Below, in pieces: positions 4,955 to 25,520 of a DNA stretch of 64,000 nt. Within the stretch, counting starts at the first letter, position 1. Each line of letters starts with the position of its first letter. The notes under the pieces were generated by a model. The model worked only from the letters and a program-made list of their open reading frames with translations. It was not told where the DNA came from and did no database searches. Source of the stretch: Fermentimonas sp. (GTDB taxonomy: Bacteria > Bacteroidota > Bacteroidia > Bacteroidales > Dysgonomonadaceae); NCBI GenBank assembly GCA_028709385.1, contig JAQVXD010000001.1, positions 62,001-126,000 of the forward strand, written 5' to 3'. The position numbers and the translations under genes are program-made.

Positions 4955-6115
4955 TTAATTATTCCCTTTTGAAAACTTTTTACGGAAATTCAATGGTGAA
5001 TAGCCAGTGGTTTTTTTAAAAATCCTATAAGCGTTTCTTACGTCATTGAATCCTGCTTCAATACTTATATCCAGCAGACTATCGCTAGTCGTCAGTAATT
5101 TATAAGAAAGATATTCTGTTTTCTTTTCCAATATGAATTGATAAATAGTTGTACCCATTGTTTCTTTGAATTTTTTTTCTAGTGTCCTCCTGCCAAGCGG
5201 GACTAGTTGCGTCAGATTATCTATAGATATATCAGATGTGACATTTTTTTCAATATAATCTATAATCCTTACAATATCTTTGTTCGAGATGTTATATCTT
5301 TCTGTAGATTGTCTTTGTTCAATTCGTATCGGTTTCTTTGTGATATTGAATGGAATATTTTTATTATTCATAATTAATGTGTGAAGTTTATTACCTGTTG
5401 TATACCCGATATTTTCATCGTCGGTAACAATAGAAGAAATGGTGGGGTAAGATAAATTACAGATAAGCTCGTCATTATCAACTCCTAATAGTGATATCTC
5501 ATTTGGAATGTTGATATTATTTATTTTGCACATTTCAGTAACCTGTAAAGCGAAATAATCGTCACATGCAAAAACGGCAATCGGTTTTGGAAGTGAAGAC
5601 AGCCATGTATTCAACTCTATATGACTACTACTCCATTGACTGTTAGTTAAATATTCAGATTCAAAATAATAGTAGTTACCTTTTAATTTCTCAACTTCGC
5701 TTCGATAGCCTTCTGCCCTCCCTTTCGACCAAAGGAAATTTTTATTACCATAGAATGCAAAATTCTTAAACATCTTTTTTGAAAAAAAATCTGCCGCCAT
5801 TGCACCTACTTCTTGGTAATTTCCGGAAATCTTTGAGAACCAATCGGCGTCATCTTCATAGTTTTGAAGAAATACAGGAATATCCAGATTCTTTAAAAAT
5901 TGTACCTCCTGGTATTCCCATTGGGCAATCACTGCGTCTATACCCCATTCTTCAGTCCGCTTAACAATTCCAGCTTCACCATACAATACTTTATAATAAA
6001 AAGGCAGTCTGTAAAAAATCCAAGGGCCTTTCTCATGCGCATAACGTATCAGGCCTGTTAGAAAACGACGACTGAACTCAGTAGCGGAATCTATTAGAAT
6101 AAGTATTTTAATCAT
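4955..6115 (-). CDS. XylR-like transcriptional regulator (sugar-binding domain plus AraC HTH)
   Basis: This 386-residue protein has an N-terminal periplasmic-binding-protein-like sensor domain (about residues 1-270; MIKILILIDSATEFSRRFL, VFACDDYFALQVTEMC, LLGVDNDELICNLSYPTISS). The C-terminal AraC-type DNA-binding domain covers about 285-383 (SIDNLTQLVPLGRRTLEKKF, DISIEAGFNDVRNAYRIFKK). This is the architecture of the xylose regulator XylR. It is divergent from the SusC-SusD-nag operon with 333 bases between, so it is the likely local regulator. Its inducer is inferred to be an amino sugar or derivative rather than xylose, because no xylose genes are present. Confidence 0.85.
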   Translation of the reverse strand: MIKILILIDSATEFSRRFLTGLIRYAHEKGPWIFYRLPFYYKVLYGEAGIVKRTEEWGIDAVIAQWEYQEVQFLKNLDIPVFLQNYEDDADWFSKISGNYQEVGAMAADFFSKKMFKNFAFYGNKNFLWSKGRAEGYRSEVEKLKGNYYYFESEYLTNSQWSSSHIELNTWLSSLPKPIAVFACDDYFALQVTEMCKINNINIPNEISLLGVDNDELICNLSYPTISSIVTDDENIGYTTGNKLHTLIMNNKNIPFNITKKPIRIEQRQSTERYNISNKDIVRIIDYIEKNVTSDISIDNLTQLVPLGRRTLEKKFKETMGTTIYQFILEKKTEYLSYKLLTTSDSLLDISIEAGFNDVRNAYRIFKKTTGYSPLNFRKKFSKGNN

Positions 6116-6448: not shown

Positions 6449-9400
6449 ATGGAACAAGTAATTAGAAAATTATTATTGATAAGTACATGTCTGTTATTTA
6501 TGTCTTATATGTCTTATGGTCAAGACAAGGCAATCAGACAAGGGATTGTTACCGATAAAGTGACAAATGAAACTTTACCCGGAGTACAGGTTGTAGTTAA
6601 AGGTACAACCAGAGGAGTAGTATCCGATTTGGACGGACATTTTACAATTGAGGTTAATAACAGCGATCATCTGGTTTTCAGTATGCTCGGCTATGAATCA
6701 GAGGAAGTTTTTATGGGAAATGAGGTGTCATTCAATATTGAATTATCGCCTACAGCCTATGATTTAGGAGAAGTTGTAGTAACCGCTTTAGGTATTGAAC
6801 GGAAAACAAGAACATTGTCTTATTCTACTCAACAGATAGAAGGATCTATTGGAGAGATAAAAGATAACAGCTCAAATATCTTAAGCAGTTTATCCGGAAA
6901 AATATCAGGTGCTGTGGTAACTACTGCTGCCTCTGGCCCAGGTGCTGCAGCACGTGTTGTACTTAGGGGAAATCGTTCCATAAGCGGAAATAATACCGCT
7001 TTAATTGTAATAGATGGTGTTCCTTATGATAATAGTTCATATAGACAAGCAACAGGAACTAATTATAATTACGGCGGAAGTGATGGTGCAGTAAATATAA
7101 ATCCCGATGATGTTGCTTCTATAAACGTTCTAAAAGGACCTTCTGCGGCTGCATTATATGGAAGCAGAGCTGCAAACGGAGCAATTATAATTACTACAAA
7201 ACAAGGGAAAGAAGGTGGATTGAAAATTGATCTTAATAGCAGTATGTCTGTTGATCAACCCAATTTATTAATCAACTTCCAGAATAAATACGGTAGAGGT
7301 AATGGAGGAGTTGCAGCAGAAGCAGTTGGCGAAAGTTGGGGTGCTGCAGCGCAAACTTATCCAAGCAATGTTAAAGACTTTTTCGAAACGGCTTACTCAT
7401 TTAATAATACGGTTAGCCTATATGGTGGTACTGAAATGATGAAAGGATTTGCATCCTATACCAACAACTCTGTAGAGGGGATGATACCCGGAAACAAAAT
7501 GGATAGGAATACGATGAACCTGAGAATAAATACTCAGCTTAATTCAAAACTTACCACTGATGCGAAGATCACGTATGTGAATCAGAAGATATTAAATCGC
7601 CCTCGCTTGGGTGATGCAGGAACACCCATAGAAGCATATATTATGCCGAGAGATATGAGTGAGGAGGAATTGAAAATTTATGAAACCATTGACCCGAATA
7701 ATGGGCAACCGGTAAGAAAATACTGGACCACATCTTCTATTTACGATAATCCATACTGGAGTACCGAAAGAACATCTGTAAATGAAGTGCGAAATCGTGT
7801 AACTTTATTGGGATCAGCCAAATATCAATTGTTTAATTGGTTGAGTATACTTGGTCGTGTAAGTTATGACCGGTATGATGATAAAGTAGATGGCTCTTTT
7901 TATAGTGGCACAGTTTCTTTAGGAGACGTAAAGACAGGAGGTAAATATTACGAGACCAATTCTCAATACTGGGAAAGGAACATAGATTTATTACTCTCAG
8001 GAGAGAACGCTATTACGGAGAATGTAAGTATAAATTACAACATTGGAAGCAGTTTCCTAAAGAGAGAGTATGCTACAGCAACGGACATGGCAAACGGACT
8101 TTCCATCCCGAACATGTTCAGCCTGACAGCTGCTACTACTCCTGCTTTTAGTGATATAGGCGGATATACTCGTGCTTTAAATTCTGTTTATGGAAATTTG
8201 CAGCTAGGACTTAAGTCTTTTTTATTCGTAGATGTTACGGGTAGAAACGACTGGTCTTCCACATTACCTTCGCCACATAGTTATTTTTATCCTTCAGTTG
8301 GTTTATCAGCTGTTATTTCTGATATGATGAACATGCCTTCCTGGATTAGTTTTGGGAAAGTAAGAGCTTCATATACACAAGTGGGTAACGACCCCGACCC
8401 TTACTTACTGAAACAAAGATTTCAATTTGGTTTAGGAGCAGGACAAGGATTTATTTCCAGAAATCAAAATAAGTCGATTCAGGATTTGAAACCGGAAAAG
8501 ACAAATTCTTACGAAGTTGGACTTGACTGGAGATTTTTAAGTGGCCGTTTAGGTCTGGATGCTACTTTATATAAAAGTAATACCATCAATCAGTTGTTGT
8601 ACGTAGGCTTGCCTATGGCAAGTGGATTCAACAGGAGATATATCAACGCTGGAAATATAGAGAACAAAGGAATAGAAATTCAATTAAATGCTACACCAGT
8701 CGAAACTAATAATTTCAGTTGGAGCACTGATGTTAATTTTTCCAGGAATATAAATAAGGTAATTGAACTGGCGCCAAACACTACACAGGTAAATATTACA
8801 GATAATACTAAATACGCAACTGTAATAGTGAAAGAAGGCAGCTCGTATGGTGATTTATATGGAAGAGCCTGGAAAACTGATGCTGAAACAGGTAAATATA
8901 TTGTCGACAACAGAGGATTGCCTGTTGCAGAGTCTAATCAAAAGCTTGGGAACTTTAATCCCGATGCTATGTTGGGATGGAGTAACAGATTGAATTATAA
9001 AAATTTCAGAGTATCGTTTCTGATCGATGCTCGCATAGGTGGAGAAATGATTTCCGGAACCGATGCATATCTGGCATATTATGGAGTTGCCGATTACACA
9101 GAGAAATTTAGAGATGGTGGCTTAATCCTTGATGCAGTAAAGGCTGATGGTTCTGTCAATTCAACTGAAATTACTGCCCAGCAATTATGGACTACTGTTT
9201 CTCAGAACGGTCGTGACGGATGGGGTGAATTCTTCGCTTATGATATGACCAACGTGCGTCTTAGAGAGCTATCGTTAGGATATGATTTTGATTTAAAAGA
9301 GACTTCTATTATTGAAGCTGCATCTTTCTCTGTAACAGGAAGAAATCTGGTGTTCTTCTACAGAGGAAAATCAATAATGGATATCAATGGTATCGGAAAA

Positions 9401-9517
9401 AGAGATAACCCTACTGATCCGGATGCATCTTTGGGTGCAGGTAATTATCAGGGAGTAGAATTAGGATTACCACCGATGTCAAGGTCAATCGGATTTAATA
9501 TTAAATTAACTTTTTAA
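6449..9517 (+). CDS. SusC/RagA-family TonB-dependent outer-membrane transporter
   Basis: This 1022-residue protein has a signal peptide (to about residue 24). A carboxypeptidase-regulatory-like domain follows (GIVTDKVTNETLPGVQVVVKG, ~30-105). The TonB plug includes LGEVVVTALGIERK and the SusC signature VLKGPSAAALYGSRAANGAI (~228-247). The rest is a long beta-barrel ending in phenylalanine (IKLTF). It imports oligosaccharides or glycan fragments through the outer membrane using TonB energy, working with the SusD lipoprotein encoded eight bases downstream. The neighbouring enzymes point to a substrate with N-acetylhexosamine. Confidence 0.95.
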   Translation: MEQVIRKLLLISTCLLFMSYMSYGQDKAIRQGIVTDKVTNETLPGVQVVVKGTTRGVVSDLDGHFTIEVNNSDHLVFSMLGYESEEVFMGNEVSFNIELSPTAYDLGEVVVTALGIERKTRTLSYSTQQIEGSIGEIKDNSSNILSSLSGKISGAVVTTAASGPGAAARVVLRGNRSISGNNTALIVIDGVPYDNSSYRQATGTNYNYGGSDGAVNINPDDVASINVLKGPSAAALYGSRAANGAIIITTKQGKEGGLKIDLNSSMSVDQPNLLINFQNKYGRGNGGVAAEAVGESWGAAAQTYPSNVKDFFETAYSFNNTVSLYGGTEMMKGFASYTNNSVEGMIPGNKMDRNTMNLRINTQLNSKLTTDAKITYVNQKILNRPRLGDAGTPIEAYIMPRDMSEEELKIYETIDPNNGQPVRKYWTTSSIYDNPYWSTERTSVNEVRNRVTLLGSAKYQLFNWLSILGRVSYDRYDDKVDGSFYSGTVSLGDVKTGGKYYETNSQYWERNIDLLLSGENAITENVSINYNIGSSFLKREYATATDMANGLSIPNMFSLTAATTPAFSDIGGYTRALNSVYGNLQLGLKSFLFVDVTGRNDWSSTLPSPHSYFYPSVGLSAVISDMMNMPSWISFGKVRASYTQVGNDPDPYLLKQRFQFGLGAGQGFISRNQNKSIQDLKPEKTNSYEVGLDWRFLSGRLGLDATLYKSNTINQLLYVGLPMASGFNRRYINAGNIENKGIEIQLNATPVETNNFSWSTDVNFSRNINKVIELAPNTTQVNITDNTKYATVIVKEGSSYGDLYGRAWKTDAETGKYIVDNRGLPVAESNQKLGNFNPDAMLGWSNRLNYKNFRVSFLIDARIGGEMISGTDAYLAYYGVADYTEKFRDGGLILDAVKADGSVNSTEITAQQLWTTVSQNGRDGWGEFFAYDMTNVRLRELSLGYDFDLKETSIIEAASFSVTGRNLVFFYRGKSIMDINGIGKRDNPTDPDASLGAGNYQGVELGLPPMSRSIGFNIKLTF

Positions 9518-9525
9518 TAATCAGT

Positions 9526-11076
9526 ATGATGAAAAAATATATTTACAGTTGTGTATTGTCTCTCTTAATAATGTTTAGCTGTACGGGAGACTTTGAAGAA
9601 ATGAATACAGATCCCAATAACTTAACGGAGGTTGGAGCACGTGAAATGCCTTTTATGTTTGCTAAAGCTCAATCTGCTTCTGCATTGAACCGCAGTTTTT
9701 ACCAAACCGTTCAGAATCTTGGAGCAGACTTATATTCACAATATTTTGCGCTGACCAGTACTTCCTTTTCTACTGACCGCTACGTTCTTGTCCCTGACTG
9801 GCAGAGACGCTTTTGGACTGTTGTCTATGTAGATACAGCACCTCAGCTAAAAGCAATAAAAGATAATGCAGAGCCTGGTTCAGGTGAGGAAGCTCTGGCT
9901 GATATTCTATGGGTATATGCATTTCATCGGCTAACTGATCATTTTGGGCCTATTCCTTATTTTCAGGCTGCTGAACCAATCGAAGTAATCCCTTATGATT
10001 CTCAGGATAAAATTTACGATGATTTTTTTACTCGCCTGGAATCGTCAGTTAATACACTCAAGGCATTGCCGGAAGGAACCACTGTGTTTAAGGGATACGA
10101 ACTAATGTATGACGGAGATATTAAAAAGTGGATAGCTTTTGCAAATACATTACGTCTTCGACTGGCATTACGTATATCTGCAATAGATCCTGCAAGAGCC
10201 AAATCTGAAGCAGAGGCAGCTTTTGCTGCAGGTGTATTATTGGATAACTCACAAAATGCATTTCTGAAAAAAGCAGAACCCGGTAATGATACAAATGGTT
10301 TGTCTCAGGTAGCAGCTTGGAATGAATTTGCAATGAGTTCTACTATAGCATCTTATTTAAAAGGGTATGAAGATCCTCGTTTGAGTATCTATTTCCAACC
10401 TAATGTAACAACCGGGACCTATACAAGTTTAAGAAATGGATTGCCGGCAACAGAGCTGGGTAAACCAAGAAATACGCCTTCGCAGAACTCTAATGTTGGT
10501 ACTTATTGGGCAACACCAAAAAGTGATAAAACATTCAGTCCTAATCTTACAGCTCCATACCATATTATGTGTGCCGCAGAAGCTTATTTCCTTAGAGCAG
10601 AAGGATCTTTGAACGGATGGAATATGGGTGGAACAGCAGAAGAATTGTATAATAAAGGAATTCAGACAAGTATGGAACAATGGGGAATTAATTCCAGTGC
10701 TATTGCCTCTTATATTCAATCAGATAATCAACCTATAGCACCGGATGATGATCAGGAGTCATTGGCTGTTGCATCTATTCCTGTTAAATGGAGCAGTAAT
10801 ATTGCTGAACAACGTCAACAGATTGGTACCCAAAAGTGGCTGGCCATATTTCCAAACGGTATGGAAGCCTGGGCGGAATTCAGACGTTCCGGTTACCCTG
10901 TAATGTATCCGGTATATCAGTCTGACAATCCATTGCTTCCATCGGGAAGTTTTATCAAAAGACTACCTTTCCCGTTAACAGAAGAGGCTAACAATAAAGC
11001 TGAACTGGAAAAAGGTAAAGCTCTTCTGGGTGGTCCTGATAATGTAGCTACAAACCTCTGGTGGGATGTGGATTGA
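9526..11076 (+). CDS. SusD/RagB-family surface glycan-binding lipoprotein
   Basis: This 516-residue lipoprotein has a signal with lipobox IMFSC (Cys ~19), followed by GDFEEMNTDPNNLTEV, a typical start of the SusD-like_2 group. The body contains the helical TPR-like features of the family (ALADILWVYAFHRLTDHFGPIPYFQA; AAEAYFLRAEGSLNGW; QKWLAIFPNGMEAWAEFRRSGYP). It should sit on the cell surface as the lid of the SusC transporter. Which glycan it binds cannot be read from sequence. Confidence 0.93.
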   Translation: MMKKYIYSCVLSLLIMFSCTGDFEEMNTDPNNLTEVGAREMPFMFAKAQSASALNRSFYQTVQNLGADLYSQYFALTSTSFSTDRYVLVPDWQRRFWTVVYVDTAPQLKAIKDNAEPGSGEEALADILWVYAFHRLTDHFGPIPYFQAAEPIEVIPYDSQDKIYDDFFTRLESSVNTLKALPEGTTVFKGYELMYDGDIKKWIAFANTLRLRLALRISAIDPARAKSEAEAAFAAGVLLDNSQNAFLKKAEPGNDTNGLSQVAAWNEFAMSSTIASYLKGYEDPRLSIYFQPNVTTGTYTSLRNGLPATELGKPRNTPSQNSNVGTYWATPKSDKTFSPNLTAPYHIMCAAEAYFLRAEGSLNGWNMGGTAEELYNKGIQTSMEQWGINSSAIASYIQSDNQPIAPDDDQESLAVASIPVKWSSNIAEQRQQIGTQKWLAIFPNGMEAWAEFRRSGYPVMYPVYQSDNPLLPSGSFIKRLPFPLTEEANNKAELEKGKALLGGPDNVATNLWWDVD

Positions 11077-11114
11077 ATAAACAGATTGTAATAACTTGAA
11101 AATAAAAAATATAA

Positions 11115-11882
11115 ATGACAACTGAAATTAAAGAATTACAGAAAGATAATCTTTTGGTTCGTATTTTCCCAGATGAGACTTCAGCAGGAAAAGGAAGCGC
11201 TGAGTTTGTAGCCATGCATTTGAAAGATGCCATTCAAGCCAAAGGCCATGCAAATCTAATCCTTGCTACGGGTGCCTCTCAATTTGCTTTTATCGAGGCT
11301 ATTAAAACACTTCAAATAGATTGGGGTAAAATTACAGTATTTCATTTGGATGAATATAAAGATTTATCTGAAACACATCCGGCTAGTTTCCGAAAGTATC
11401 TGAAAGAAAGAATCCTTGATAAGGTAAAACCATTTCAGGTGCATTATATCAATGGTGATGCGAAGGAAATTGATCGTGAAATTGCCCGCTATGAAGAGTT
11501 GTTAGAAGCCGTCACTGTTGATGTTGCCTGTATAGGTATTGGCGAGAATGGGCATATTGCTTTTAACGACCCGGAAGTAGCAGACTTTGATGATCCTAAA
11601 TTGGTGAAGATAGTGCAGCTGGACGAAATGTCACGCATGCAACAATTGGGAGAGGGTTGGTTTCCTACACTCGATGATGTACCAAAAGAGGCAATCAGTC
11701 TGACAATTCCTGCTATTATGCGTTGCAAAGTGGTCAGCTGTATGGTACCGGATGAGCGAAAAGCTAATGCAGTATATAATACTTTAAATGCAGAAATATC
11801 GACAGCATGTCCGGCAACTATCATAAGAAATCATCCTAATGCGGTATTATTTTTAGATAGCGACTCAGCTTCTCAGTTATGA
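11115..11882 (+). CDS. NagB-like glucosamine-/galactosamine-6-phosphate deaminase
   Basis: This 255-residue enzyme is of the NagB/6-phosphogluconolactonase fold. It should convert an amino-sugar 6-phosphate to the ketose 6-phosphate plus ammonia. LDEYKDL (D79-E80) and GIGENGHIAFNDP (residues 141-153, H147) correspond to the active-site segments. The usual NEP after the GHIAF motif is NDP here (D152), and the protein carries GEGWFPTLDDVP near residue 180. I take these as marks of a divergent Bacteroidota subfamily rather than the housekeeping NagB. Its stop overlaps the next start by four bases. Specificity for GlcN-6-P versus GalN-6-P is open. Confidence 0.85.
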   Translation: MTTEIKELQKDNLLVRIFPDETSAGKGSAEFVAMHLKDAIQAKGHANLILATGASQFAFIEAIKTLQIDWGKITVFHLDEYKDLSETHPASFRKYLKERILDKVKPFQVHYINGDAKEIDREIARYEELLEAVTVDVACIGIGENGHIAFNDPEVADFDDPKLVKIVQLDEMSRMQQLGEGWFPTLDDVPKEAISLTIPAIMRCKVVSCMVPDERKANAVYNTLNAEISTACPATIIRNHPNAVLFLDSDSASQL

Positions 11883-13918
11883 TGAAACGAGACTTATTTA
11901 TACTAATATTTATTATAATTTTCACCAAAGGTATCCGGGGACAAAATAGTCTTCCGGATATCTTTACCGGTGAGAGAGATAACGATTTGATAAGTTTTTC
12001 TCTAAAGAATGAGGCTGCAATAGCCTTCAATCTGTTACAGATAACACAAAGCAAAGATGAGTGGTTTACATATAGAGAAGAGCTGAAGAATGAAATCTTA
12101 CAACACGCAAAAGTTTCTTATCTGTCTGATCTGCCTCTTGAATACATAGAAACAGGTGTTACAAATGTGGATGGGTTCAGAATTAAAAATATTTACTTTC
12201 AAACTCGTCCAAATGTTTATGCTACTGCCAACCTGTATATTCCCGACGGAATAGGTCCCTTTCCTGCGGTTTTGGTGACAATGGGGCATTCGCGTAACGG
12301 AAAATTGTTTGCCGAATATCAGGCGTTGGGACAAACTTTGGCTTTGAACGGTTATGTAGCTATTGCCATAGATCCATGGGGAGCAGGCGAAAGAACTACT
12401 GATCACGGTGATTTTGAATACCATGGTGCAAATTTGGGCGGCTCTCTGTTGAATGTGGGAGAGACCTTAATGGGAATGCAAATTACAGACAATATGCGTG
12501 CGATTGATCTGCTTGCATCTCTTCCTTTTGTTGATGGTGAAAATATTGGAGCGACAGGAGCAAGTGGTGGTGGCAATCAAGTGATGTGGCTTGCAGCATT
12601 GGATGAGCGTATTAAAGCTGTTATTCCTGCAGTAAGTATAGGTACTTTTCAGTCATATATATTAAACAGTAACTGCATATGTGAAGCGTTACCTGGAGGA
12701 CTGACTTTTATTGAAGAGTCTGCAGTTTTAGGTCTTATTGCACCCAGGGCATTGAAAATATTTAGTGGTTTGCACGATGCAAATGCAGCATTTAAACCAC
12801 AGGAAATGTTGAGAAGCTTCCATGGTGCAGAGACTATATATGGGTTTTATGGTGCAGAAGAGAAACTTTCTTACCAGATATTTGATACTCCTCATGGTTA
12901 CTTTACAGAAATGAGGGAGGCTATGCTTGGTTGGTTTGATCTACATTTAAAAAACAGGGGTACAGGTGCGCCAAAAAAAGAGAAATATTTTAAAACGCTA
13001 CCTGATTCAGATCTGAGGGTTTTCCCACTAGGAAAACGTCCATTGGAAGTAGTTTCTACTGCTGATTACTGTTTTAATAAGGGCTCACTTTTGAGAACTA
13101 AGATGTTATCAATTGAAAATATTAATGTTCAACAAAAAAAAGATGAGTTAAAAGAATTACTAAGTATATCAGGAAAGTATAATTTGAAGTATGTAACTAA
13201 GTTATCGAATTCAAACGATTGGGATCGTTTTGTTTTGAAGTCAACCACCGGAGATCTCATACCTTTATTGCTCTATATACCAAATAAAGGCAGCAAAGAA
13301 TTTACGTTAATTGCCAGTTCTAAGGGAAAAGACTCGATTTCAATTGATTTGATTAATGAACTTATCGAAAAAGGAACAGGTATCTGTATTGTAGATTTAT
13401 GGGGGATAGGAGAGAGCTCATCTGCTGAGGCTAAACGCATTGATGGTTTGTTGCCGGAATTTCATACTTTATCCCGTTCTGCATTATGGTTGGGTAAACC
13501 AATGCAAGGAATATGGATTAAGCAGTTGGATGTGGTTGTAAACTGGTTAACAAATACTTTTCAAATGAAAAATATCACTATTGATGCAGATAGAGAATTA
13601 GCAGTTGCAAGTTTATTGTTTTCTGTTCTTGAAAATAAAGTTGATAAATTATTTCTCAGAAAAATTCCATCAAGCTATTTATTTGATAAATCCGCAGACA
13701 CTAATAATTATTCTATGGCGATTCATATACCCGACTTCTTAATTTGGGGTGACATCTCACTTGCAGTTGCTTTGTCGGGTAAAGATATTATCTTTATTGA
13801 TCCGTTAACCATCTCAGGGAGGAAATTAAGTGACAATGAAATTGAGGAGTTTGAAAATGAGATCTATCACTTTAGTTCACTCTATGAGAATAGTTCGGAG
13901 GTTATTTTTATAAAATAA
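11879..13918 (+). CDS. Secreted double alpha/beta-hydrolase (acetyl-xylan-esterase/dienelactone-hydrolase-like)
   Basis: This 679-residue protein has a signal peptide (to ~21) and an N-terminal alpha/beta-hydrolase (~70-385) of the AXE1/dienelactone-hydrolase type. A visible triad is Ser229 in GATGASGG, Asp300 in SGLHDAN and His339 in DTPHGYF. The C-terminal part (~425-600) repeats the fold: PLLLYIPNKGSKEFTLIA then GTGICIVDLWGIGES parallels ATANLYIPDGIGPFPAVLV then GYVAIAIDPWGAGER. It lacks a nucleophile elbow (ITIDADRELAVAS at that place). A de-O-acetylase acting on imported or surface glycan is the likely role. It lies between nagB and the GH109-like gene. Confidence 0.75.
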   Translation: MMKRDLFILIFIIIFTKGIRGQNSLPDIFTGERDNDLISFSLKNEAAIAFNLLQITQSKDEWFTYREELKNEILQHAKVSYLSDLPLEYIETGVTNVDGFRIKNIYFQTRPNVYATANLYIPDGIGPFPAVLVTMGHSRNGKLFAEYQALGQTLALNGYVAIAIDPWGAGERTTDHGDFEYHGANLGGSLLNVGETLMGMQITDNMRAIDLLASLPFVDGENIGATGASGGGNQVMWLAALDERIKAVIPAVSIGTFQSYILNSNCICEALPGGLTFIEESAVLGLIAPRALKIFSGLHDANAAFKPQEMLRSFHGAETIYGFYGAEEKLSYQIFDTPHGYFTEMREAMLGWFDLHLKNRGTGAPKKEKYFKTLPDSDLRVFPLGKRPLEVVSTADYCFNKGSLLRTKMLSIENINVQQKKDELKELLSISGKYNLKYVTKLSNSNDWDRFVLKSTTGDLIPLLLYIPNKGSKEFTLIASSKGKDSISIDLINELIEKGTGICIVDLWGIGESSSAEAKRIDGLLPEFHTLSRSALWLGKPMQGIWIKQLDVVVNWLTNTFQMKNITIDADRELAVASLLFSVLENKVDKLFLRKIPSSYLFDKSADTNNYSMAIHIPDFLIWGDISLAVALSGKDIIFIDPLTISGRKLSDNEIEEFENEIYHFSSLYENSSEVIFIK

Positions 13919-13930
13919 ATATATTTTACC

Positions 13931-15379
13931 ATGCAAGTTAATAGAAGAAATTTCCTTAAAATAGCAGGTGCCACAACTGTATCTGCAATGCTGCCCTTCA
14001 AGGGGCTAAGCAATGAAATACCTGCCAGAAATCAGGATTCAGACAAAACCCTAAAAAAAATATATGATGAAGCGTATAAAAAACATCCGCAAAGATTCAA
14101 TATGTGCGGGTATGCTGCTCCTAAACTCGAAACGGTAAGAGTAGGTTTTATTGGCGTTGGTTCAAGAGGTAGTGCGGCAGTAGAAAGGGTAAGTCGCATC
14201 GATGGGGTTAAAATTGTAGCCATCTGCGATGAATTGCCCGAGAGCGCAGAGAAAGCAAAAGCACGTATACAAACACCCGGGCATCCGGCAATTATTTATT
14301 CGGGAAAAGAGGACTCCTGGAAGGAGGTATGCAGACGTGAAGACATAGATCTGATATATGTAGCTACTCCATGGGAATTACACGCTCCGATTGGAATATA
14401 TTCAATGAAAGAGGGTAAGCACGTTGCATTGGAAATTCCTGCAGCCACTACAGTTGAGGATTGCTGGAAATTGGTGGAGACCTCTGAACAGACCAAAAAG
14501 CATTGTGTGATACTTGAGAACTGTTGTTATGATTTTTTTGAATTACTTACTCTTAACCTGGCTCGCACCGGTTTCTTTGGTGAGATAGTACATGCTGAAG
14601 GTGCTTATATTCATGATATCGGTGAGAGCCTCTTCTTCAGGGGTAAGCCCGGTCGCAGCTGGAGATTAAAAGAAAATATGAAGCGTAATGGCAATCTATA
14701 TCCTACACATGGTTTGGGACCTGTTGCGCAAATAATGAATATCAACCGTGGAAATCAGATGGAGTATATGGTTTCTATGTCATCTAATGATTTTTTAATG
14801 CATAAATATGCCGAAGAATTGGCACATAAAGAGGACTATTTTAAGCAATTTGAGGATGCTACATTCAGAGGGAATATGAATAGTTCCATTATTAAGACTG
14901 TTAAAGGACAAACTATACTTATTCAGCATGATATTACTACTCCACGTCCTTACTCACGACTTCATACTATTAGTGGAACAAAAGCAACTGCACAGAAATA
15001 TCCGCTTGAACCACGTATTTCTGTAGCTGAAAATCACAAAGAGTGGTTAACTGAAGAGCAATTTAAAGAACTTGAAATGAAATATAATCCACCTATAGTA
15101 CAAAAGATGCAGGAAATTGCCAAAGAGATTGGTGGTCACGGAGGAATGGATTTTCTGATGGATTGGAGATTGATAGACTGTTTAAGAAACGGTCTTCCGG
15201 TAGATATGGATGTATATGATGCCGCTTCATGGAGTGTGATAGGTCCTTTAAGCGAATGGTCGGTAGCAAATCGCTCAGCACCAATAGATATACCTGACTT
15301 CACAAATGGGTCATGGAAAACAAACCAACCTCATGATATCTCTTTAATAAACGGAGGTACAACGGGTGTAATCGCATAA
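13931..15379 (+). CDS. GH109-like NAD-dependent alpha-N-acetylgalactosaminidase (Gfo/Idh/MocA fold)
   Basis: This 482-residue protein has a twin-arginine signal (RRNFLKIAGATTVSAM). A Rossmann domain follows with GFIGVGSRGSAAVERV, ATPWELHAPIGIYSMKEGKH and EIPAATTVEDCW. The C-terminal half has NLYPTHGLGPVAQIMNINRG, GGHGGMDFLMDW, DVYDAASWSVIGPLSEWSV and IDIPDFTNGSWK. These segments closely resemble the GH109 alpha-N-acetylgalactosaminidase I know from Elizabethkingia, which cleaves alpha-GalNAc by NAD-dependent oxidation-elimination. Tat export with bound NAD fits that family. Nearby nagA, nagB-like and permease genes support an alpha-GalNAc substrate. A non-hydrolytic oxidoreductase role remains possible. 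Confidence 0.8.
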   Translation: MQVNRRNFLKIAGATTVSAMLPFKGLSNEIPARNQDSDKTLKKIYDEAYKKHPQRFNMCGYAAPKLETVRVGFIGVGSRGSAAVERVSRIDGVKIVAICDELPESAEKAKARIQTPGHPAIIYSGKEDSWKEVCRREDIDLIYVATPWELHAPIGIYSMKEGKHVALEIPAATTVEDCWKLVETSEQTKKHCVILENCCYDFFELLTLNLARTGFFGEIVHAEGAYIHDIGESLFFRGKPGRSWRLKENMKRNGNLYPTHGLGPVAQIMNINRGNQMEYMVSMSSNDFLMHKYAEELAHKEDYFKQFEDATFRGNMNSSIIKTVKGQTILIQHDITTPRPYSRLHTISGTKATAQKYPLEPRISVAENHKEWLTEEQFKELEMKYNPPIVQKMQEIAKEIGGHGGMDFLMDWRLIDCLRNGLPVDMDVYDAASWSVIGPLSEWSVANRSAPIDIPDFTNGSWKTNQPHDISLINGGTTGVIA

Positions 15380-15397
15380 TGAAATAATAATTCCCTA

Positions 15398-16732
15398 ATG
15401 AATAAAAAAGTCTTTTATATCTCTATGGGCATTTTGGCCGTGATGTATTTTGTATTCGGCCTTGTATCATGGGTAAACGCAATTCTTATTCCCTATTTCA
15501 AGATTGCTCTGGAATTAACCCATTTCCAATCATATTTCGTAACATTTGCTTTCTATATAGCCTATTTTGTAATGGCCATCCCCTCAGGACTATTAATAAG
15601 TAAAGTAGGATATAAAAGAGGTATAATGTTTGGCTTCTTGTTTCTCTCGCTGGGGGCTCTTATTTTTGTTCCTGCAGCTCTAATTCATCAATACTCTATA
15701 TTTCTTATAGGATTGTATTGTTTGGGAACAGGTCTGGCCATTCTTCAAACGGCAGCAAACCCCTATGTTACTAACATCGGACCAATTGAAAGTGCGGCAC
15801 AACGAATGAGTGTGATGGGGATTTTTAACAAGTCGGCAGGTATTATTGCCCCTTTGCTTTTTGCAGCAGTAGTGTTCAAGTCGACAGATGACACTACCTT
15901 CGCGCTGCTTGAAGCTGGAACACTATCCGAAACTGAGAAGAATGTTATTCTGCAGGAACTGATAAGGAGGGTAATTATGCCCTATTCGATCCTTGCTGTT
16001 TTTTTACTATTGGTCGGTATCGGTATAAGATATTCGGTATTGCCTGATATAGAAGAGGAAGATAATGAGGTTATTGAAGAGAATGACATTTTACATCCAA
16101 GTGCAGATATAAAAAAACCTAAGAAGTCACTTTTGGATTACCCATATCTTATTTTTGGAGCTATAGCAATTTTTCTGCATGTGGGGACACAGGTAATTGC
16201 AATTGATACAATTATTAATTATGCCGGATCGATGGGTATAGGACTGCTTGATGCAAAGTTTTTTCCCTCTTACACTCTTATTTGTACAATAATCGGATAT
16301 TTACTGGGTATCACGCTCATTCCAAAGTTTGTCTCTCAAAAGACTGCTTTAAAATTTTGTACTGTATTAGGACTAATCCTTTCATTAGGAGTAGTATTTG
16401 CCAATTATAATGTTTCATTGTTCGGTCATACAGCAAACATCTCAATTTGGTTTTTGGCTTCAATAGGATTCCCTAATGCTTTGATCTATGCCGGTATCTG
16501 GCCCTTATCTATACATAAACTGGGTAAATTAACCAAAACAGGCTCATCTCTTTTGATTATGGGGCTCAGCGGGAATGCCATATTACCACTAATCTATGGT
16601 GCAATTGGAGATAATCATGGACTGAGAGCTGGATACTGGGTGTTGATTCCATGCTTTATTTATTTGGTATGGTTTGCATTTCATGGACATACAATTAATT
16701 ACTGGAAAAGAGAAAAAAGTATTGCTAAATGA
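15398..16732 (+). CDS. MFS sugar permease of the FucP/NagP (FHS) type
   Basis: This 444-residue inner-membrane protein has about 12 predicted helices. The FHS-family start is FGLVSWVNAILIPYFKIAL, followed by SGLLISKVGYKRGIMFG and LGTGLAILQTAANPYVT. The central loop is charged (EEEDNEVIEENDILHPS). FHS members move L-fucose, glucose/galactose or GlcNAc by proton symport. The gene overlaps nagA by four bases, which makes an N-acetylhexosamine (GlcNAc or GalNAc) the probable cargo. As an MFS carrier it delivers unphosphorylated sugar, so a cytoplasmic kinase is required and none is encoded here. Confidence 0.88.
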   Translation: MNKKVFYISMGILAVMYFVFGLVSWVNAILIPYFKIALELTHFQSYFVTFAFYIAYFVMAIPSGLLISKVGYKRGIMFGFLFLSLGALIFVPAALIHQYSIFLIGLYCLGTGLAILQTAANPYVTNIGPIESAAQRMSVMGIFNKSAGIIAPLLFAAVVFKSTDDTTFALLEAGTLSETEKNVILQELIRRVIMPYSILAVFLLLVGIGIRYSVLPDIEEEDNEVIEENDILHPSADIKKPKKSLLDYPYLIFGAIAIFLHVGTQVIAIDTIINYAGSMGIGLLDAKFFPSYTLICTIIGYLLGITLIPKFVSQKTALKFCTVLGLILSLGVVFANYNVSLFGHTANISIWFLASIGFPNALIYAGIWPLSIHKLGKLTKTGSSLLIMGLSGNAILPLIYGAIGDNHGLRAGYWVLIPCFIYLVWFAFHGHTINYWKREKSIAK

Positions 16733-17931
16733 GAAGATTAATAATAGAAAATGGGAGTGTTATTTTTCCTGATTATATCGAGGAAAATATTTCAATAATA
16801 TGTGAAGGGAGTAAGATTCGAAGTATTCTCCCTTCGTCAGATGTCGTTTTTTCTGACTCTGACTACAGGATCGATGCTTCCGGAAAGTATATCTCACCTG
16901 GGTTTATTGATATTCACCTTCATGGAGGTGGAGGTCACGATTTTATGGATGGCACAGTGGATGCTTTCCTGGGTGCGGCTGAATTACACGCCCGATACGG
17001 AACTACAGCTATGGTTCCAACTACTTTGACAAGTACAACAGAAGGATTAATGAACACTTTCTCAGTGTATAGTGAAGCAGTAAATAAAAACACAAAAGGA
17101 GCTAAATTTCTGGGTCTGCATCTTGAAGGACCTTATTTTTCATACAATCAGAGGGGAGCTCAGGATCCTAAATATCTTCGTAATCCGGAACGTGAAGAAT
17201 ATATGCATATTCTGGAATCATCAAAAGACATCGTCCGCTGGAGTCTTGCCCCTGAATTACCGGGAGCACTTGATATGAGTCGTACCTTAGTATCAAGAAA
17301 TATACTTGCAGCTGTGGCGCACAGCGACGCTGTATGTGAAGAAGTGGAAGAAGCGTTTAAAGAAGGTTTTACTCACATCACGCATTTATATTCGGGAATG
17401 TCTTCCGTAACACGCCGCAACGCCTTTAGATATGCCGGAGTTGTAGAAGCAGCCTATCTTATCGATGATATGACTGTGGAGATTATTGCTGACGGAGTAC
17501 ATATCCCTCGTCCATTATTGCAGTTTGTATACAAGTTTAAAGGTGTCGATAAAATTGCCTTGTGTACTGATTCTATGCGTGGTGCAGGTATGCCGGATGG
17601 CGAGTCAATTTTAGGAAGTCTCAAAGAAGGGCAACGTGTAATTATCGAGGATGGAGTAGCTAAGCTGCCCGATCGCACATCTTTCGCCGGCAGTGTGGCA
17701 ACGGCCGACAGGCTGATACGTACTATGGTGAATATTGCCGGTGTGTCAATACAAGAAGCCGTGAAAATGATGACTCTTACACCTGCACGTATTATGAAGA
17801 TTGACAGCCAAAAAGGATCTATAGAATCCGGAAAAGATGCTGATTTTGTGATATTCGATGAAAACATAAAAGTGTCTTACACAGTATCGGAAGGTACTGT
17901 TATATATGACGCTTTACAGAAAAAACATTAA
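16729..17931 (+). CDS. nagA: N-acetylglucosamine-/N-acetylgalactosamine-6-phosphate deacetylase
   Basis: This 400-residue amidohydrolase removes acetate from GlcNAc-6-P or GalNAc-6-P. The metal/active-site pattern is complete: HLHG (H63, H65), LEGPYFS (E133), VAHSDA, THLYSGMSS and CTDSMRGAGMPDG (D281). Length and motifs match NagA/AgaA enzymes. These overlap in specificity, so sequence alone does not fix the epimer. Its ATG overlaps the permease stop, and the UxaE-like gene follows after 22 bases. The product is the substrate of the NagB-like enzyme of the same operon. Confidence 0.93.
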   Translation: MRRLIIENGSVIFPDYIEENISIICEGSKIRSILPSSDVVFSDSDYRIDASGKYISPGFIDIHLHGGGGHDFMDGTVDAFLGAAELHARYGTTAMVPTTLTSTTEGLMNTFSVYSEAVNKNTKGAKFLGLHLEGPYFSYNQRGAQDPKYLRNPEREEYMHILESSKDIVRWSLAPELPGALDMSRTLVSRNILAAVAHSDAVCEEVEEAFKEGFTHITHLYSGMSSVTRRNAFRYAGVVEAAYLIDDMTVEIIADGVHIPRPLLQFVYKFKGVDKIALCTDSMRGAGMPDGESILGSLKEGQRVIIEDGVAKLPDRTSFAGSVATADRLIRTMVNIAGVSIQEAVKMMTLTPARIMKIDSQKGSIESGKDADFVIFDENIKVSYTVSEGTVIYDALQKKH

Positions 17932-17953
17932 TGAATAAAAATATTAATCTAAA

Positions 17954-19210
17954 ATGAATGACATGAAGCTTGAAAAGTTTAGTATAGGTATAGGGGACCG
18001 GTTTTTACACCAGGGAGAGGCACAACTGAGAGCCATAATGAAGATGAATAATGCAGGATATAACATATCTCCGGTATGGAATAAATCTAATCGCGAGCAT
18101 ATCTATGTGGGTTCTGTTCCGGCAGACACTCGCGTAGAAGCAGATGAAGCAGTAAAAGCATTGAATTTTAAGGGATCATATTTTGTCGATGCAGATCATA
18201 TCAATCTGGAAACAGTTGGTAAGTATATAGATACCTCTAACTTTTTTACTCTTGATGTTGCTTCTTTCATAGGTATAGAAAGTAGTCAGGAGGAATTGGA
18301 AGATTTTATCCTGTCCTGCAGAAGATTTATGGGACAACTGCATATTCCCGGTTTAGAAAAACCATTGAATGTTACTGCAGATTTATTAAAGACGATTGCC
18401 GGCAAATTCCTTGCTGCAGCAAAACAAGCTTCTGATATTTATATGTTTCTGAAGAAAGAAAAAGGAGAGGGTAATTTTATTACAGAGGTATCAATGGATG
18501 AAGTGGAATCACCACAGACTCCTGTTGAACTGTTTTTTATCCTTAAGATGCTTGCTGAAAAGAGTATTCCTGTGCAAACAATTGCCCCCAAATTTACTGG
18601 AAGATTCAATAAGGGAGTCGACTATGTGGGTGATTTGGATCAGTTCGCCCTTGAATTTGAACAAAACCTCTTAATAATTGATTTTGCTGTAAAAGAATTC
18701 GGTTTGCCAGCAGAAATAAAACTTAGTGTTCACTCGGGAAGCGATAAATTTACTATATACCCTATAATGGCAAATTTGCTTAAAATGCACGATAAAGGCT
18801 TGCATTTAAAAACAGCAGGTACAACCTGGCTGGAAGAAGTAATCGGGTTATCTTTAGGAGGAGAAGATAGTTTAACTTTGGTGAAAGAAATTTATAAAGA
18901 GGCTTTACATAAGAAAGATATTTTATGTGCTCCGTATGCGGACGTAATTGATATTGATGATAAAAAGCTGCCTAAAGTAAGTGAGGTGGAAACATGGACA
19001 GGCCAGAAATTTGCTGATACACTTCGTCATATACCCGGGCACCCGGATTATAATCCTGATTTCCGGCAATTAATTCATGTCGCTTATAGTCTTGCGGCAA
19101 CAATGGGTACTGAATATACGGATCTTTTAAAGAAATATGCTGACATAATCGGACAGTGTGTTGAGGAAAATATATATGAACGTCATCTCAAACGATTATT
19201 TGCAGTTTAA
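17954..19210 (+). CDS. UxaE-family C4 epimerase (tagaturonate epimerase-like)
   Basis: This 418-residue cytoplasmic protein resembles the tagaturonate epimerase family (UxaE), whose known reaction interconverts D-tagaturonate and D-fructuronate at C4. Typical segments are EKFSIGIGDRFLHQGEAQL, YFVDADHINLETV, IAPKFTGRFNKGVDYVGD, LSVHSGSDKFTIYPIM and LHLKTAGTTWLEE. No uronate genes (uxaC, uxuA, uxaB, kdgK) are present. As the last gene after nagA and the nagB-like gene, it could act on a ketose 6-phosphate, turning tagatose-6-P from a galactosamine route into fructose-6-P. That role is inference; the family assignment is firmer. Confidence 0.75.
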   Translation: MNDMKLEKFSIGIGDRFLHQGEAQLRAIMKMNNAGYNISPVWNKSNREHIYVGSVPADTRVEADEAVKALNFKGSYFVDADHINLETVGKYIDTSNFFTLDVASFIGIESSQEELEDFILSCRRFMGQLHIPGLEKPLNVTADLLKTIAGKFLAAAKQASDIYMFLKKEKGEGNFITEVSMDEVESPQTPVELFFILKMLAEKSIPVQTIAPKFTGRFNKGVDYVGDLDQFALEFEQNLLIIDFAVKEFGLPAEIKLSVHSGSDKFTIYPIMANLLKMHDKGLHLKTAGTTWLEEVIGLSLGGEDSLTLVKEIYKEALHKKDILCAPYADVIDIDDKKLPKVSEVETWTGQKFADTLRHIPGHPDYNPDFRQLIHVAYSLAATMGTEYTDLLKKYADIIGQCVEENIYERHLKRLFAV

Positions 19211-22355: not shown

Positions 22356-23753
22356 ATGGAGTACAGAATTGAAAAAGACACACTGGGAGAGGTGAAAGTG
22401 CCCGCTGACAAGTTATGGGGTGCCCAGACGGAGAGATCGCGTAATAATTTCAAGATAGGCAAACCTGCGTCTATGCCAATTGAGCTGATTTATGGATTTG
22501 CATACCTTAAAAAAGGAGCAGCATATGCAAACCATGAGCTGGGTGTACTGCCAGTTGAAAAGCGTGATCTGATTGCAAAAGTTTGTGATGAGATACTTGA
22601 GGGGAAGCATGACGATCAGTTTCCTTTAGTAATCTGGCAGACAGGTTCAGGCACTCAAAGCAATATGAATGTAAACGAGGTAATAGCAAATCGTGCACAC
22701 CAGCTTGCAGGAAAAAGAGTAGGCGAAGGAGAAAAAACATTGCAGCCGAATGATGATGTTAATAAGTCGCAATCATCAAACGACACATTCCCCACAGGGA
22801 TGCACATTGCCAGCTACAAAAAGGTGGTTGAAGTTACCCTTCCCGGATTGCGTCAGCTTCACAAGTCTTTGGAAAAGAAGTCAAAAGAGTTGGCTGATGT
22901 GGTAAAAATAGGGCGCACACACCTTATGGATGCCACGCCTCTTACACTCGGCCAGGAATTCAGCGGTTATGTTTCTCAGCTTGAGTATGGGATCAGGGCA
23001 ATAGAGAATACATTGCCACACCTTGCAGAGCTCGCTCTCGGAGGTACGGCTGTAGGCACCGGGCTCAATACTCCTAAAGACTATGATGTTACGGTAGCAA
23101 AATATATAGCTGAATTCACCGGCCTGCCTTTTGTTACCGCTCCAAATAAGTTTGAAGCACTTGCAGCACACGATGCAATCGTGGAAACACATGGTGCGTT
23201 AAAACAGGTTGCTGTTTCGCTAAACAAAATTGCAAATGACGTCAGACTGCTTGCATCAGGCCCAAGAAGCGGTATCGGTGAGATTATAATACCTGCAAAT
23301 GAGCCGGGGTCATCAATCATGCCCGGCAAAGTGAATCCTACACAGGCAGAAGCGCTTACTATGGTTTGCGCTCAAGTTATAGGTAATGATGCTGCAATTA
23401 CTGTTGGCGGTATGCAGGGACATTTTGAGCTCAACGTGTTTAAACCCGTTATGGCAGCAAACTTCCTTCAGAGTGCACAGTTGCTGGGTGATGCTGCTAT
23501 CTCTTTTGATATTCACTGTGTATCAGGTATTGAACCTAATAAACCACGCATTAAAGAATTGCTTGATAATTCGCTTATGCTAGTGACTGCACTTAATACC
23601 AAAATAGGGTATTATAAGGCAGCGGAGATTGCAAATACTGCTCACCAAAATGGCACAACGCTTAAAGAGGAGGCTGTGCGACTGGGCTATGTGACAGCAG
23701 ATGAGTTTGATGAATGGGTGCGTCCGGAGGATATGATCGGACCTCTGGAATAA
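22356..23753 (+). CDS. fumC: Fumarate hydratase, class II
   Basis: This 465-residue enzyme interconverts fumarate and malate and needs no metal cofactor. Signatures are [18 protein letters not shown] (~105-122), [20 protein letters not shown] (~188-207) and the catalytic loop [13 protein letters not shown] (~318-330). Length and motifs match FumC. It ends at a terminator, and a separate class I fumarase follows 127 bases later, so the strain carries both fumarase types side by side. Confidence 0.97.
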
Positions 23754-23775
23754 ATAAAAGGTCAACAGTTATTAT

Positions 23776-23805
23776 AAACGGTGTCATTTCACGATGCCGT
23801 TTTTT
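23776..23805 (+). terminator. Terminator after fumC
   Basis: AAACGG and CCGTTT, with an inner CAT/ATG pairing, form a hairpin followed by a run of T. It lies 22 bases past the fumC stop. It is directly followed by the promoter of the next gene. Confidence 0.7.
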
Positions 23806-23810
23806 CTTTG

Positions 23811-23818
23811 TATTTTTG
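23811..23818 (+). promoter_or_regulatory. -7 promoter box for the class I fumarase
   Basis: A TATTTTTG sequence fits TAnnTTTG and lies about 60 bases before the start codon, just after the fumC terminator. This suggests the two fumarases are transcribed independently. Confidence 0.5.
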
Positions 23819-23879
23819 TATACTTATTTATCGACAGACCAAATAATTAACAATAACATAAAATTTAATTTAATAGTTT

Positions 23880-25520
23880 ATGGCTACAAAACCATTTATT
23901 TATCAGGAACCTTTCCCTATGTCGGAAGATAAAACTGAATATTATCTGCTTACCAAGGATCATGTTTCTGTCGCAGAATTTGAAGGAAAAGAGATACTTA
24001 AGGTCTCAACCGAGGGATTAACACTTATGGCGCAAACAGCTTTTCGTGATGTGGAGTTTTTATTACGTCCCGAACATCAGGAACAGGTGGCAAAAATTTT
24101 AAATGATCCCGAATCAAGTGAGAATGATAAATTTGTGGCTTTGACATTCCTGCGTAATGCTGAGATTTCTGCAAAAGGTGTTCTCCCATTTTGTCAGGAT
24201 ACAGGAACAGCCATAATAACAGGTAAGAAAGGACAGAACGTATGGACTGACGGCTGTGATTCGGAAGCTCTCTCTAAAGGTGTTTACAACACTTTCGTGA
24301 ATGAGAATCTTCGCTATTCTCAGAATGCAGCGCTCAACATGTATGATGAAGTTAATACCGGTACCAACCTGCCTGCACAAATAGATTTGTATGCAACTGG
24401 CGGAAATGAATACAACTTCCTATGTATTGCTAAAGGCGGAGGCTCTGCCAACAAAACGTACCTCTATCAGGAAACAAAAGCATTGCTTACTCCCGGTAAA
24501 CTGGAAAATTATCTGATTGAGAAAATGAAATCGCTGGGTACAGCTGCTTGTCCCCCTTATCACCTTGCTTTTGTTATTGGTGGAACATCAGCAGAAGCAA
24601 ATCTTAAAACAGTAAAGCTGGCATCTGCCAAGTATTATGATAACCTGCCAACAGAAGGAAATGAGCATGGTCAGGCTTTCAGAGATATTGAGTTGGAAAA
24701 AAGATTAAAAAAAGCCTCTGAAGAGCTGGGCTTAGGTGCACAGTTTGGAGGTAAGTATTTTGCACATGATGTACGAGTAATACGTTTGCCGCGCCACGGT
24801 GCTTCTTGTCCCGTTGGTATGGGAGTTTCCTGCTCTGCCGACCGCAATATTAAGGCTAAGATCAATAAAGATGGTATCTGGATTGAGAAACTTGAGGATA
24901 ATCCGGCAAGACTGATACCTGAGGAGTATCGTGAAGTGGGTGAAGCAGGCGGAGTTAAGATTGATCTTAATCAGCCAATGGTAAAGATACTTGCAGAACT
25001 TTCAAAATATCCTGTTTCTACGAGACTGTCACTAAATGGAACTATAATAGTAGGACGTGATATTGCTCATGCGAAACTAAAAGAACGCATTGATAAAGGT
25101 GAAGGAATGCCTCAGTATATGAAAGATCACCCGATCTATTATGCCGGTCCTGCAAAAACACCCGCAGGTTATGCTTCAGGGTCTATGGGACCAACCACGG
25201 CAGGGCGAATGGACTCATATGTTGATCTTTTCCAGTCGCATGGCGGAAGCATGATAATGCTGGCAAAAGGTAATCGTAGTCAGCAGGTTACCGATGCTTG
25301 TAAAAAACATGGCGGATTTTACCTGGGTAGTATTGGTGGACCTGCAGCTATCCTTGCTAAAGAGAGCATCAAGAGTCTGGAGTGTGTTGAATACCCTGAA
25401 CTGGGAATGGAAGCAATCTGGAAAATTGAAGTTGAGGATTTCCCGGCATTTATTCTTGTAGATGATAAGGGCAACGACTTCTTCCAGGTGGTTACACAGC
25501 CGAATTGCAGTTTTAGTTAA
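23880..25520 (+). CDS. Fumarate hydratase, class I (iron-sulfur)
   Basis: This 546-residue enzyme of the FumA/FumB type interconverts fumarate and malate using an oxygen-sensitive [4Fe-4S] cluster. Visible segments include [17 protein letters not shown] with a cluster-type cysteine, [36 protein letters not shown] and [21 protein letters not shown]. The C-terminal beta region has [26 protein letters not shown]. The two halves (alpha and beta) are fused, as in E. coli FumA. With fumC upstream, the cell can use the iron enzyme when iron is plentiful and fumC otherwise. The ORF begins at the ATG used here. Confidence 0.95.

Follow-up and report, generated by a model that had tools for sequence, protein, structure and literature searches.

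A 64,000-nucleotide stretch of a Fermentimonas sp. genome (contig JAQVXD010000001.1, positions 62,001 to 126,000; hereafter the window) carries a gene for a short-form UxaE family C4-epimerase at the 3′ end of an amino-sugar operon that also encodes GH109, NagA and NagB-like proteins. We put the probability at about one half that this protein still converts D-tagaturonate to D-fructuronate, judging from sequence and counting in a sub-case with an amino-uronate source. On this reading, a UxaE-type ketohexose C4-epimerase from the short subfamily of Bacteroidota would have left its hexuronate operon context, and its gene would have been gained at the 3′ end of the amino-sugar operon. That uxaE sits in this operon in two genera suggests formation of tagaturonate while the operon is in use. 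Its source would be galacturonate also liberated from the same glycan or, in a bolder sub-case, an amino-uronate processed by the non-canonical NagA/NagB pair. Tagaturonate is also described outside hexuronate catabolism, e.g., from L-galactose/L-galactonate (PMC12632266, in excerpt). The organism's own hexuronate operon (uxaC, mannonate oxidoreductase, PfkB kinase, gnd, and hexonate epimerase) lacks a uxaE of its own, and the window copy or a second copy on contig C93 would have to supply that step, judging from an assembly that is 88% complete. The substrate, the direction of the move, co-expression, and the physiological role in this account are ones that we infer and do not read from the data.

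The UxaE Protein

Matches to PF16257 were found in 55 of 392 genomes of the phylum and are either long (~419–632 bits) or short (~172–202 bits), apart from a handful, mainly partial, that fit neither group. The window protein (~418 amino acids) belongs to the short group. PF16257 is the only family that it matches at E ≤ 0.001, and it has no match to PF08013, the GatZ/KbaZ family. The AlphaFold2 model has a mean pLDDT of 94.2, and its best Foldseek matches (TMq 0.78–0.82) are UxaE and Thermotogota tagatose 4-epimerase structures (9lhw, 9lhu, 9lhy, 6il9, 6ilb, 6ila). These are followed by another tagatose 4-epimerase (9kcs, 0.62), then 3txv and 2fiq, and then class II aldolases including the tagatose-1,6-bisphosphate aldolase 1gvf. 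The nearest folds outside UxaE, 3txv and 2fiq, were deposited as tagatose 6-phosphate kinase, and we take both to be members of the GatZ family. Profile match, invariant residues, and modeled fold all place the window protein in UxaE.

None of the 83 columns that are identical across 104 other short UxaE sequences is altered in the window protein. The same is true of the 55 columns invariant in 19 UxaE sequences (15 other short and 4 long), a reference set from which GH109-linked copies were excluded. Among two GH109-linked copies from other genomes, described below, 0/55 of these columns are changed in G513 and 1/55 in G502b. The unchanged invariant columns favor unaltered tagaturonate chemistry. 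At columns conserved in more than 90% of sequences, the window protein keeps 161 of 169 and deviates at 8, where the 104 others have a median of 2 deviations (range 0–18). Compared with the UxaE tagaturonate/fructuronate epimerases (PF16257; 6il9, 9lhw), the protein is alike in family match, fold, and all 55 invariant columns. It is unlike them in length (~418 vs. ~500 amino acids), in its 27–29% identity to the four long forms, and in an operon without uxaC, uxaB, or a uronate-type transporter.

Two other accounts of the gene were rejected. Decay does not fit a protein that deviates at 8/169 conserved columns vs. 95/246 others and at none of the 83 fully conserved ones, and recent foreign import does not fit a GC content (0.373) and third-position GC (0.298) that resemble those of the neighboring genes.

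Genomic Context of UxaE Relatives

A hexuronate marker lies within 5 kb of 121 of 147 UxaE loci (120 with the marker only, and one, L262, with a marker and a NagB-like gene). By marker we mean any one of uxaC, mannOR (D-mannonate oxidoreductase), exuT, eda, hexEpi (hexonate epimerase), or gnd as best match within that distance. Twenty-two of the remaining loci have neither, and four lie beside GH109/NagA/NagB-like genes (the window, G513, G512, and G502b). For this count 148 loci and the window were submitted; L081 and L089, in which no UxaE open reading frame (ORF) was read, were left out. The set is partly redundant, with some genes taken from two collections (seemingly L272 and L101), and contig ends truncate many flanks. 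The window copy has no homolog of uxaC, mannOR, exuT, eda, gnd, or hexEpi within 5 kb; such neighbors are typical of the family but not a strict criterion for it. Among the 80 nearest named UxaE loci, with flanks often shortened by contig ends, none has the window's nagA, nagB, gh109, or permease (BLAST, E 1e-10). The recurrent neighbors there include UxaC, D-mannonate oxidoreductase, a PfkB kinase, Gnd, 2-keto-3-deoxy-6-phosphogluconate aldolase, a galactonate-type major facilitator superfamily (MFS) transporter, and a nickel-dependent putative hexonate epimerase.

A preliminary description of this DNA reported no hexuronate genes. This holds for the amino-sugar operon, but not for the genome: its sole identified uxaC and a hexuronate operon are located upstream of the window on the same contig (about C111:50797–60072). 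The gene order is lacI (on the minus strand)-uxaC-mannOR-kinase-gnd-hexonate epimerase, with uxaC ~28 kb upstream of the window's uxaE. The gap from uxaC to mannOR is 93 bp and holds no uxaE; uxaC, uxaE, and mannOR occur together in at least 16 loci of the genus. The genome's second uxaE is on a small contig, C93, with pieces of alpha-L-rhamnosidase genes and a Gfo/Idh gene, and a binning error is possible for this copy in an assembly of 128 contigs. The window UxaE is 73% identical to those of the genus (internal median 87%), and the organism's UxaC has a median identity of 67% to genus UxaC (internal median 86%).

Several features of these loci are worth recording in their own right. The UxaC of this genome (L197:8797–10206) is divergent, yet the neighboring genes of its operon are 79–93% identical to those of L034, L037, and L174; a xenologous replacement coinciding with the absence of uxaE is possible. 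Hexuronate operons of the genus (L034:11378–16247; in this genome L197:8797–18072) combine UxaC, D-mannonate oxidoreductase, a PfkB kinase, 6-phosphogluconate dehydrogenase, and the NF052594 nickel-dependent putative hexonate epimerase. This gene set suggests a route from fructuronate through mannonate and gluconate to 6-phosphogluconate, leaving via Gnd and not via 2-keto-3-deoxygluconate. The operon in this genome ends with a Gfo/Idh gene and a 3-keto-disaccharide hydrolase (PF06439; L197:15230–18072), a pair that suggests 3-keto-type glycoside cleavage feeding uronate use. A second odd context of short UxaE, with a Gfo/Idh oxidoreductase and flanking alpha-L-rhamnosidase genes, is found in L173 (G000:C93), L040, and L247, which form one clade.

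The Amino-Sugar Operon

The window's uxaE closes a co-directional run of eight genes at 6449–19210, identified from the ORF list and Pfam/NCBIfam scans and preceded by a divergent regulator:

4955..6115, minus strand: divergent regulator with a periplasmic-binding-protein domain and an AraC helix-turn-helix domain (PF13377, PF12833)
6449..9517, plus strand: susC, SusC/RagA-type outer-membrane transporter (ORF; named from its position before SusD)
9526..11076, plus strand: susD, SusD-like lipoprotein (PF12741, 416.8 bits)
11115..11882, plus strand: NagB-like amino-sugar isomerizing deaminase of a non-canonical type (PF01182, Glucosamine_iso, 79.6 bits)
11879..13918, plus strand: AXE1-like alpha/beta hydrolase, probable esterase (PF05448, 41.1 bits, cut-off 21)
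13931..15379, plus strand: GH109, alpha-N-acetylgalactosaminidase family (PF21252 C-terminal domain, 147.7 bits; Rossmann domain PF01408, 64.2 bits)
15398..16732, plus strand: MFS permease of the NagP/FucP type (NF046060, NagP, 354.5 bits, under the cut-off of 625; TIGR01272, 223.2 bits, above cut-off)
16729..17931, plus strand: NagA-type deacetylase (TIGR00221, 286 bits; alignments to NagA structures in the PDB)
17954..19210, plus strand: short-form UxaE family C4-epimerase (PF16257, 173.6 bits, cut-off 27.1; AlphaFold2 model; Foldseek)

The GH109, permease, NagA, NagB-like, and UxaE genes are open, co-directional, and located as the preliminary description had them; it did not include the hydrolase at 11879–13918 or the susC/susD pair at 6449–11076. 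The uxaE start (17954) follows the nagA stop (17931), and feoB, named from reading of the sequence, comes next on the opposite strand. Both the C-terminal and the Rossmann domain assign the 13931–15379 protein to GH109, and it aligns to the solved GH109 6t2b at 332 bits (E = 5.7e-98). It has a weak Tat-like signal (PF10518, 22.1 bits, just under the cut-off of 22.7). The deacetylase exceeds the NagA equivalog cut-off of TIGR00221 (225.65). The scans found no AgaS and no tagatose-6-phosphate kinase or aldolase among the operon proteins; no genome-wide search was made for LacC, LacD, KbaY, or AgaS. Orthologs of the regulator (81–84%) lie directly upstream of susC in L212 and L213, and orthologs of susC (86–89%) occur in L177–L179, L212, and L213. 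Beyond the operon, positions 22356–25520 encode a fumC-type fumarase and then a second, apparently unrelated fumarate-hydratase-like gene (names from reading of the sequence), both with orthologs in L177.

The Operon in Related Genomes

In two genomes of the same genus (G027 and G035) the operon is syntenic on both sides, and nagA is followed by feoB-fumC-fumA with no uxaE. The two are near-identical here (L177 and L178 have 7 differences over the first 12.5 kb) and were counted as one lineage. G022 (L179) holds the operon up to a contig end ~250 bp past nagA, and the only uxaE match of that genome is elsewhere, beside uxaC. G015 and G495 have susC-susD-nagB-axe-gh109-permease followed by neither nagA nor uxaE, and G461 has nagA-permease-nagB-gh109-axe-susD-susC with no UxaE match in the genome. 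Since relatives have the operon without it, the window's uxaE looks like a gained gene, probably inserted between nagA and feoB. The idea that the operon requires an internal uxaE was rejected, as L177, L178, L179, L212, L213, and L217 all carry the operon without one, L212 and L213 also without nagA.

Co-occurrence of UxaE with GH109 and nagA, raised in the preliminary description, does extend beyond this genome, to a second genus of the same family (g216), where two genomes have uxaE in a homologous operon. G513 has nagB (70% identity)-axe (60%)-gh109 (79%)-uxaE, then ORFs without a Pfam match to the contig end, and G512 has gh109 (79%)-uxaE-permease (70%)-nagA (56%, truncated where the contig stops). 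In both genomes no more than ~60 bases separate the stop of gh109 from the start of uxaE, and the position of uxaE within the operon differs from that in the window. As far as the contigs extend, uxaE is in the operon without uxaC in three genomes. The link recurs in the second genus, through two recruitments or one kept association, and chance seems, informally judged, a poor account.

A UxaE family tree, which the preliminary description had proposed, gives a mixed answer on independent recruitment. In a 73-row tree (four distant rows, L029, L030, L032, and L067, omitted) the window copy has a long end branch and falls within a 31-row clade, nearly all from the genus and mostly from hexuronate loci (support 100/98), apart from G512/G513. 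An earlier 65-row tree without G512/G513 placed it at the base of the genus group (support 87). In topology tests, whose groups were defined by context once a first tree had been built, a clade of the window with G512/G513 (p 0.27) or with G502b (p 0.29) was not rejected, and a single clade of all four GH109-linked copies was (p 0.005). The residues 274 N, 276 L, and 401 Q are common to the window and G512/G513 and may reflect common descent or chance. Across the family, the esterase, taken as the operon marker, is associated with UxaE (9/10 vs. 35/91, Fisher p 0.002), a comparison confounded by kinship as 6/10 carriers belong to one genus.

The fourth locus, in G502 (L216:12433–16829), has Gfo/Idh-UxaE-GH109 on one strand and, on the other, a susC-like gene, a further ORF, and three AXE-like hydrolases. 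The G502b case is weakened by the abundance of GH109 in Petrimonas mucosa of the same family, where an excerpt of PMC7768429 gives it as the most abundant glycoside hydrolase family.

The NagB-Like Deaminase and NagA

The NagB-like protein scores 127.1 bits against TIGR00502 (nagB; cut-off 236.9) and falls under the cut-offs of all NCBIfam deaminase models that it matched. A canonical NagB is encoded elsewhere in the genome (contig C70; TIGR00502, 406.6 bits). In MAFFT and HMMER alignments, whose register differs at this site, the Arg of ANSRFF/ANARYF has no Arg counterpart in the NagB-like protein; we take the Arg of the canonical ANSRFF motif to be the phosphate-side Arg172 of E. coli NagB. 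The NagB-like protein also has TGASQ where the canonical protein has TGSSP. The T-G-x-S loop and one NagB-site Lys are retained, and an Arg lies a few residues ahead of the lost one. Since the protein is non-canonical while a canonical NagB is present elsewhere, its substrate probably differs from that of canonical NagB, and the operon is probably not for plain glucosamine-6-phosphate. The NagA motif is HLYSGM, and three of the four solved NagA proteins aligned have HL(Y/F)NAM. The other nag operon of the genus likewise encodes a NagA with HLYSGM/HLYSAM, so the motif is not special to the window operon. In that second operon type (L180–L192; regulator-permease-nagA-nagB), AAPSQ replaces the TG-loop of the NagB-like protein.

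Two other loci lean toward uronate products, although both could be neighborhood coincidence. In G461, a tagaturonate reductase (581.5 bits, cut-off 359) is encoded near the operon, beyond an opposite-strand LacI gene. In G778, a 50% identical NagB-like gene together with GH35, GH88, and a TIGR00893-type MFS gene adjoins a UxaE operon.

Alternative Explanations

Several observations weigh against unaltered tagaturonate chemistry. The 8 deviations at conserved columns (vs. a median of 2) and the fast evolution of the window copy (end branch 0.53 vs. a median of 0.076) could mark a new role. The operon has neither uxaC nor a uronate-type transporter, and a source of galacturonate is not evident. 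GH109, the NagP-type permease, and NagA are what one would expect for a neutral N-acetylhexosamine. Finally, the LacI gene separates the G461 reductase from the operon, and the reductase may belong to another operon. We read the window UxaE as retained chemistry with fast drift elsewhere; it may also be a new role with the core kept.

Somewhat short of even odds go to a deaminase-epimerase route defined more broadly. In it, the non-canonical NagA/NagB pair would convert an N-acetylated galactosamine derivative (an amino-uronate or a 6-phosphate) to tagaturonate or tagatose-6-phosphate, and the recruited UxaE would invert C4 in a single step into hexuronate or fructose-6-phosphate metabolism without a tagatose kinase or aldolase.

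The tagatose-6-phosphate form of this route, proposed in the preliminary description, we consider unlikely. GH109 would free N-acetylgalactosamine (GalNAc), which would be imported and phosphorylated by an unlinked kinase; NagA would deacetylate it, the NagB-like protein would deaminate it to tagatose-6-phosphate, and UxaE would yield fructose-6-phosphate. The gene content stands, uxaE without uxaC in three operons and a divergent deaminase alongside canonical NagB are consistent with such a route, and the long branch of the window copy and the fold kinship with 3txv/2fiq and the aldolase 1gvf point the same way. Part of PMC11907403 reports that GatZ/KbaZ interconvert fructose-6-phosphate and tagatose-6-phosphate in one step, so the proposed C4 chemistry has a precedent in a related fold. 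GatZ/KbaZ (PF08013) was absent from all four genomes searched (this one, 88% complete, and three relatives; E. coli control positive), which also fits the route. The switch of substrate itself is not supported: residues invariant among other UxaE (0/83 changed) are intact, and 121/147 loci have a hexuronate marker. G022, G027, and G035 hold the operon with no GatZ/KbaZ and with uxaE elsewhere, and G461, which lacks any UxaE match, carries the operon with a tagaturonate reductase nearby. GalNAc use in B. thetaiotaomicron, moreover, goes through a 1-kinase (PMC11992087, in part).

Within the preferred tagaturonate reading, the amino-uronate sub-case is improbable taken singly. Here the operon would degrade an N-acetylhexosaminuronate, with NagA and the NagB-like protein acting on a C6 carboxylate in place of a phosphate; the tagaturonate formed would pass via UxaE to the hexuronate operon, with no need of a kinase or uxaC. 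The NagB-like protein lacks an Arg opposite the one presumed to face the phosphate, NagA has HLYSGM, the UxaE invariants are unchanged, and both the reductase near the operon of UxaE-less G461 and the GH88 and MFS genes with the NagB-like gene of G778 fit. Against this, a neutral sugar is suggested by GH109 and by the permease of the NagP/FucP type, the NagB-like protein keeps the T-G-x-S loop, the Lys, and a nearby Arg, and the NagA motif is shared with the genus's other nag operon. Such a pathway was not found in open-licence papers, with loose search terms included.

That uxaE landed by chance and is a passenger, transcribed from the operon with no link to amino-sugar use, is similarly improbable: in six genomes all or most of the operon is present with no internal uxaE (G022, G027, G035, G015, G495, and G461, of which G027/G035 are near-identical there), the branch is long, and the same genome has another copy outside a hexuronate context, among rhamnosidase genes, but a second genus has uxaE in a homologous operon at a different position, and the conserved columns are under strong constraint.

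Comparison to Known Systems

The operon resembles three known systems in part. GatZ/KbaZ tagatose-6-phosphate 4-epimerase (PF08013) is the nearest fold outside UxaE and catalyzes the reaction of the preliminary description (PMC11907403, in part), but it is another family. The aga pathway for GalNAc (AgaA, AgaS, and tagatose-6-phosphate kinase/aldolase) shares a GalNAc-releasing enzyme family and a deacetylase with the window operon, which has a NagB-like deaminase in place of AgaS and no kinase or aldolase. The B. thetaiotaomicron polysaccharide utilization locus BT4240-50 (GH109, MFS, and GalNAc 1-kinase) likewise has GH109 and an MFS permease in one Bacteroidota locus. It encodes the 1-kinase BT4240, whereas the window operon has NagA, NagB-like, and UxaE genes and no such kinase.

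Among open-licence papers, we found nothing joining N-acetylgalactosamine with tagaturonate epimerase, and nothing for tagatose-6-phosphate 4-epimerase as a term. In the sections consulted, a 2017 survey of gut genomes assigned AgaS-type GalNAc catabolism to Actinobacteria, Firmicutes, and Proteobacteria only, and two Bacteroides genomes were the richest in GalNAc-releasing enzymes (PMC5583593). As far as the surveyed literature goes, the use of GalNAc-like sugars in Bacteroidota other than B. thetaiotaomicron is thus little described. The linkage of a uronate-type epimerase to a GH109/NagA/NagB-like operon, seen in two genera, offers a small, concrete gene set for a possible new exit route.

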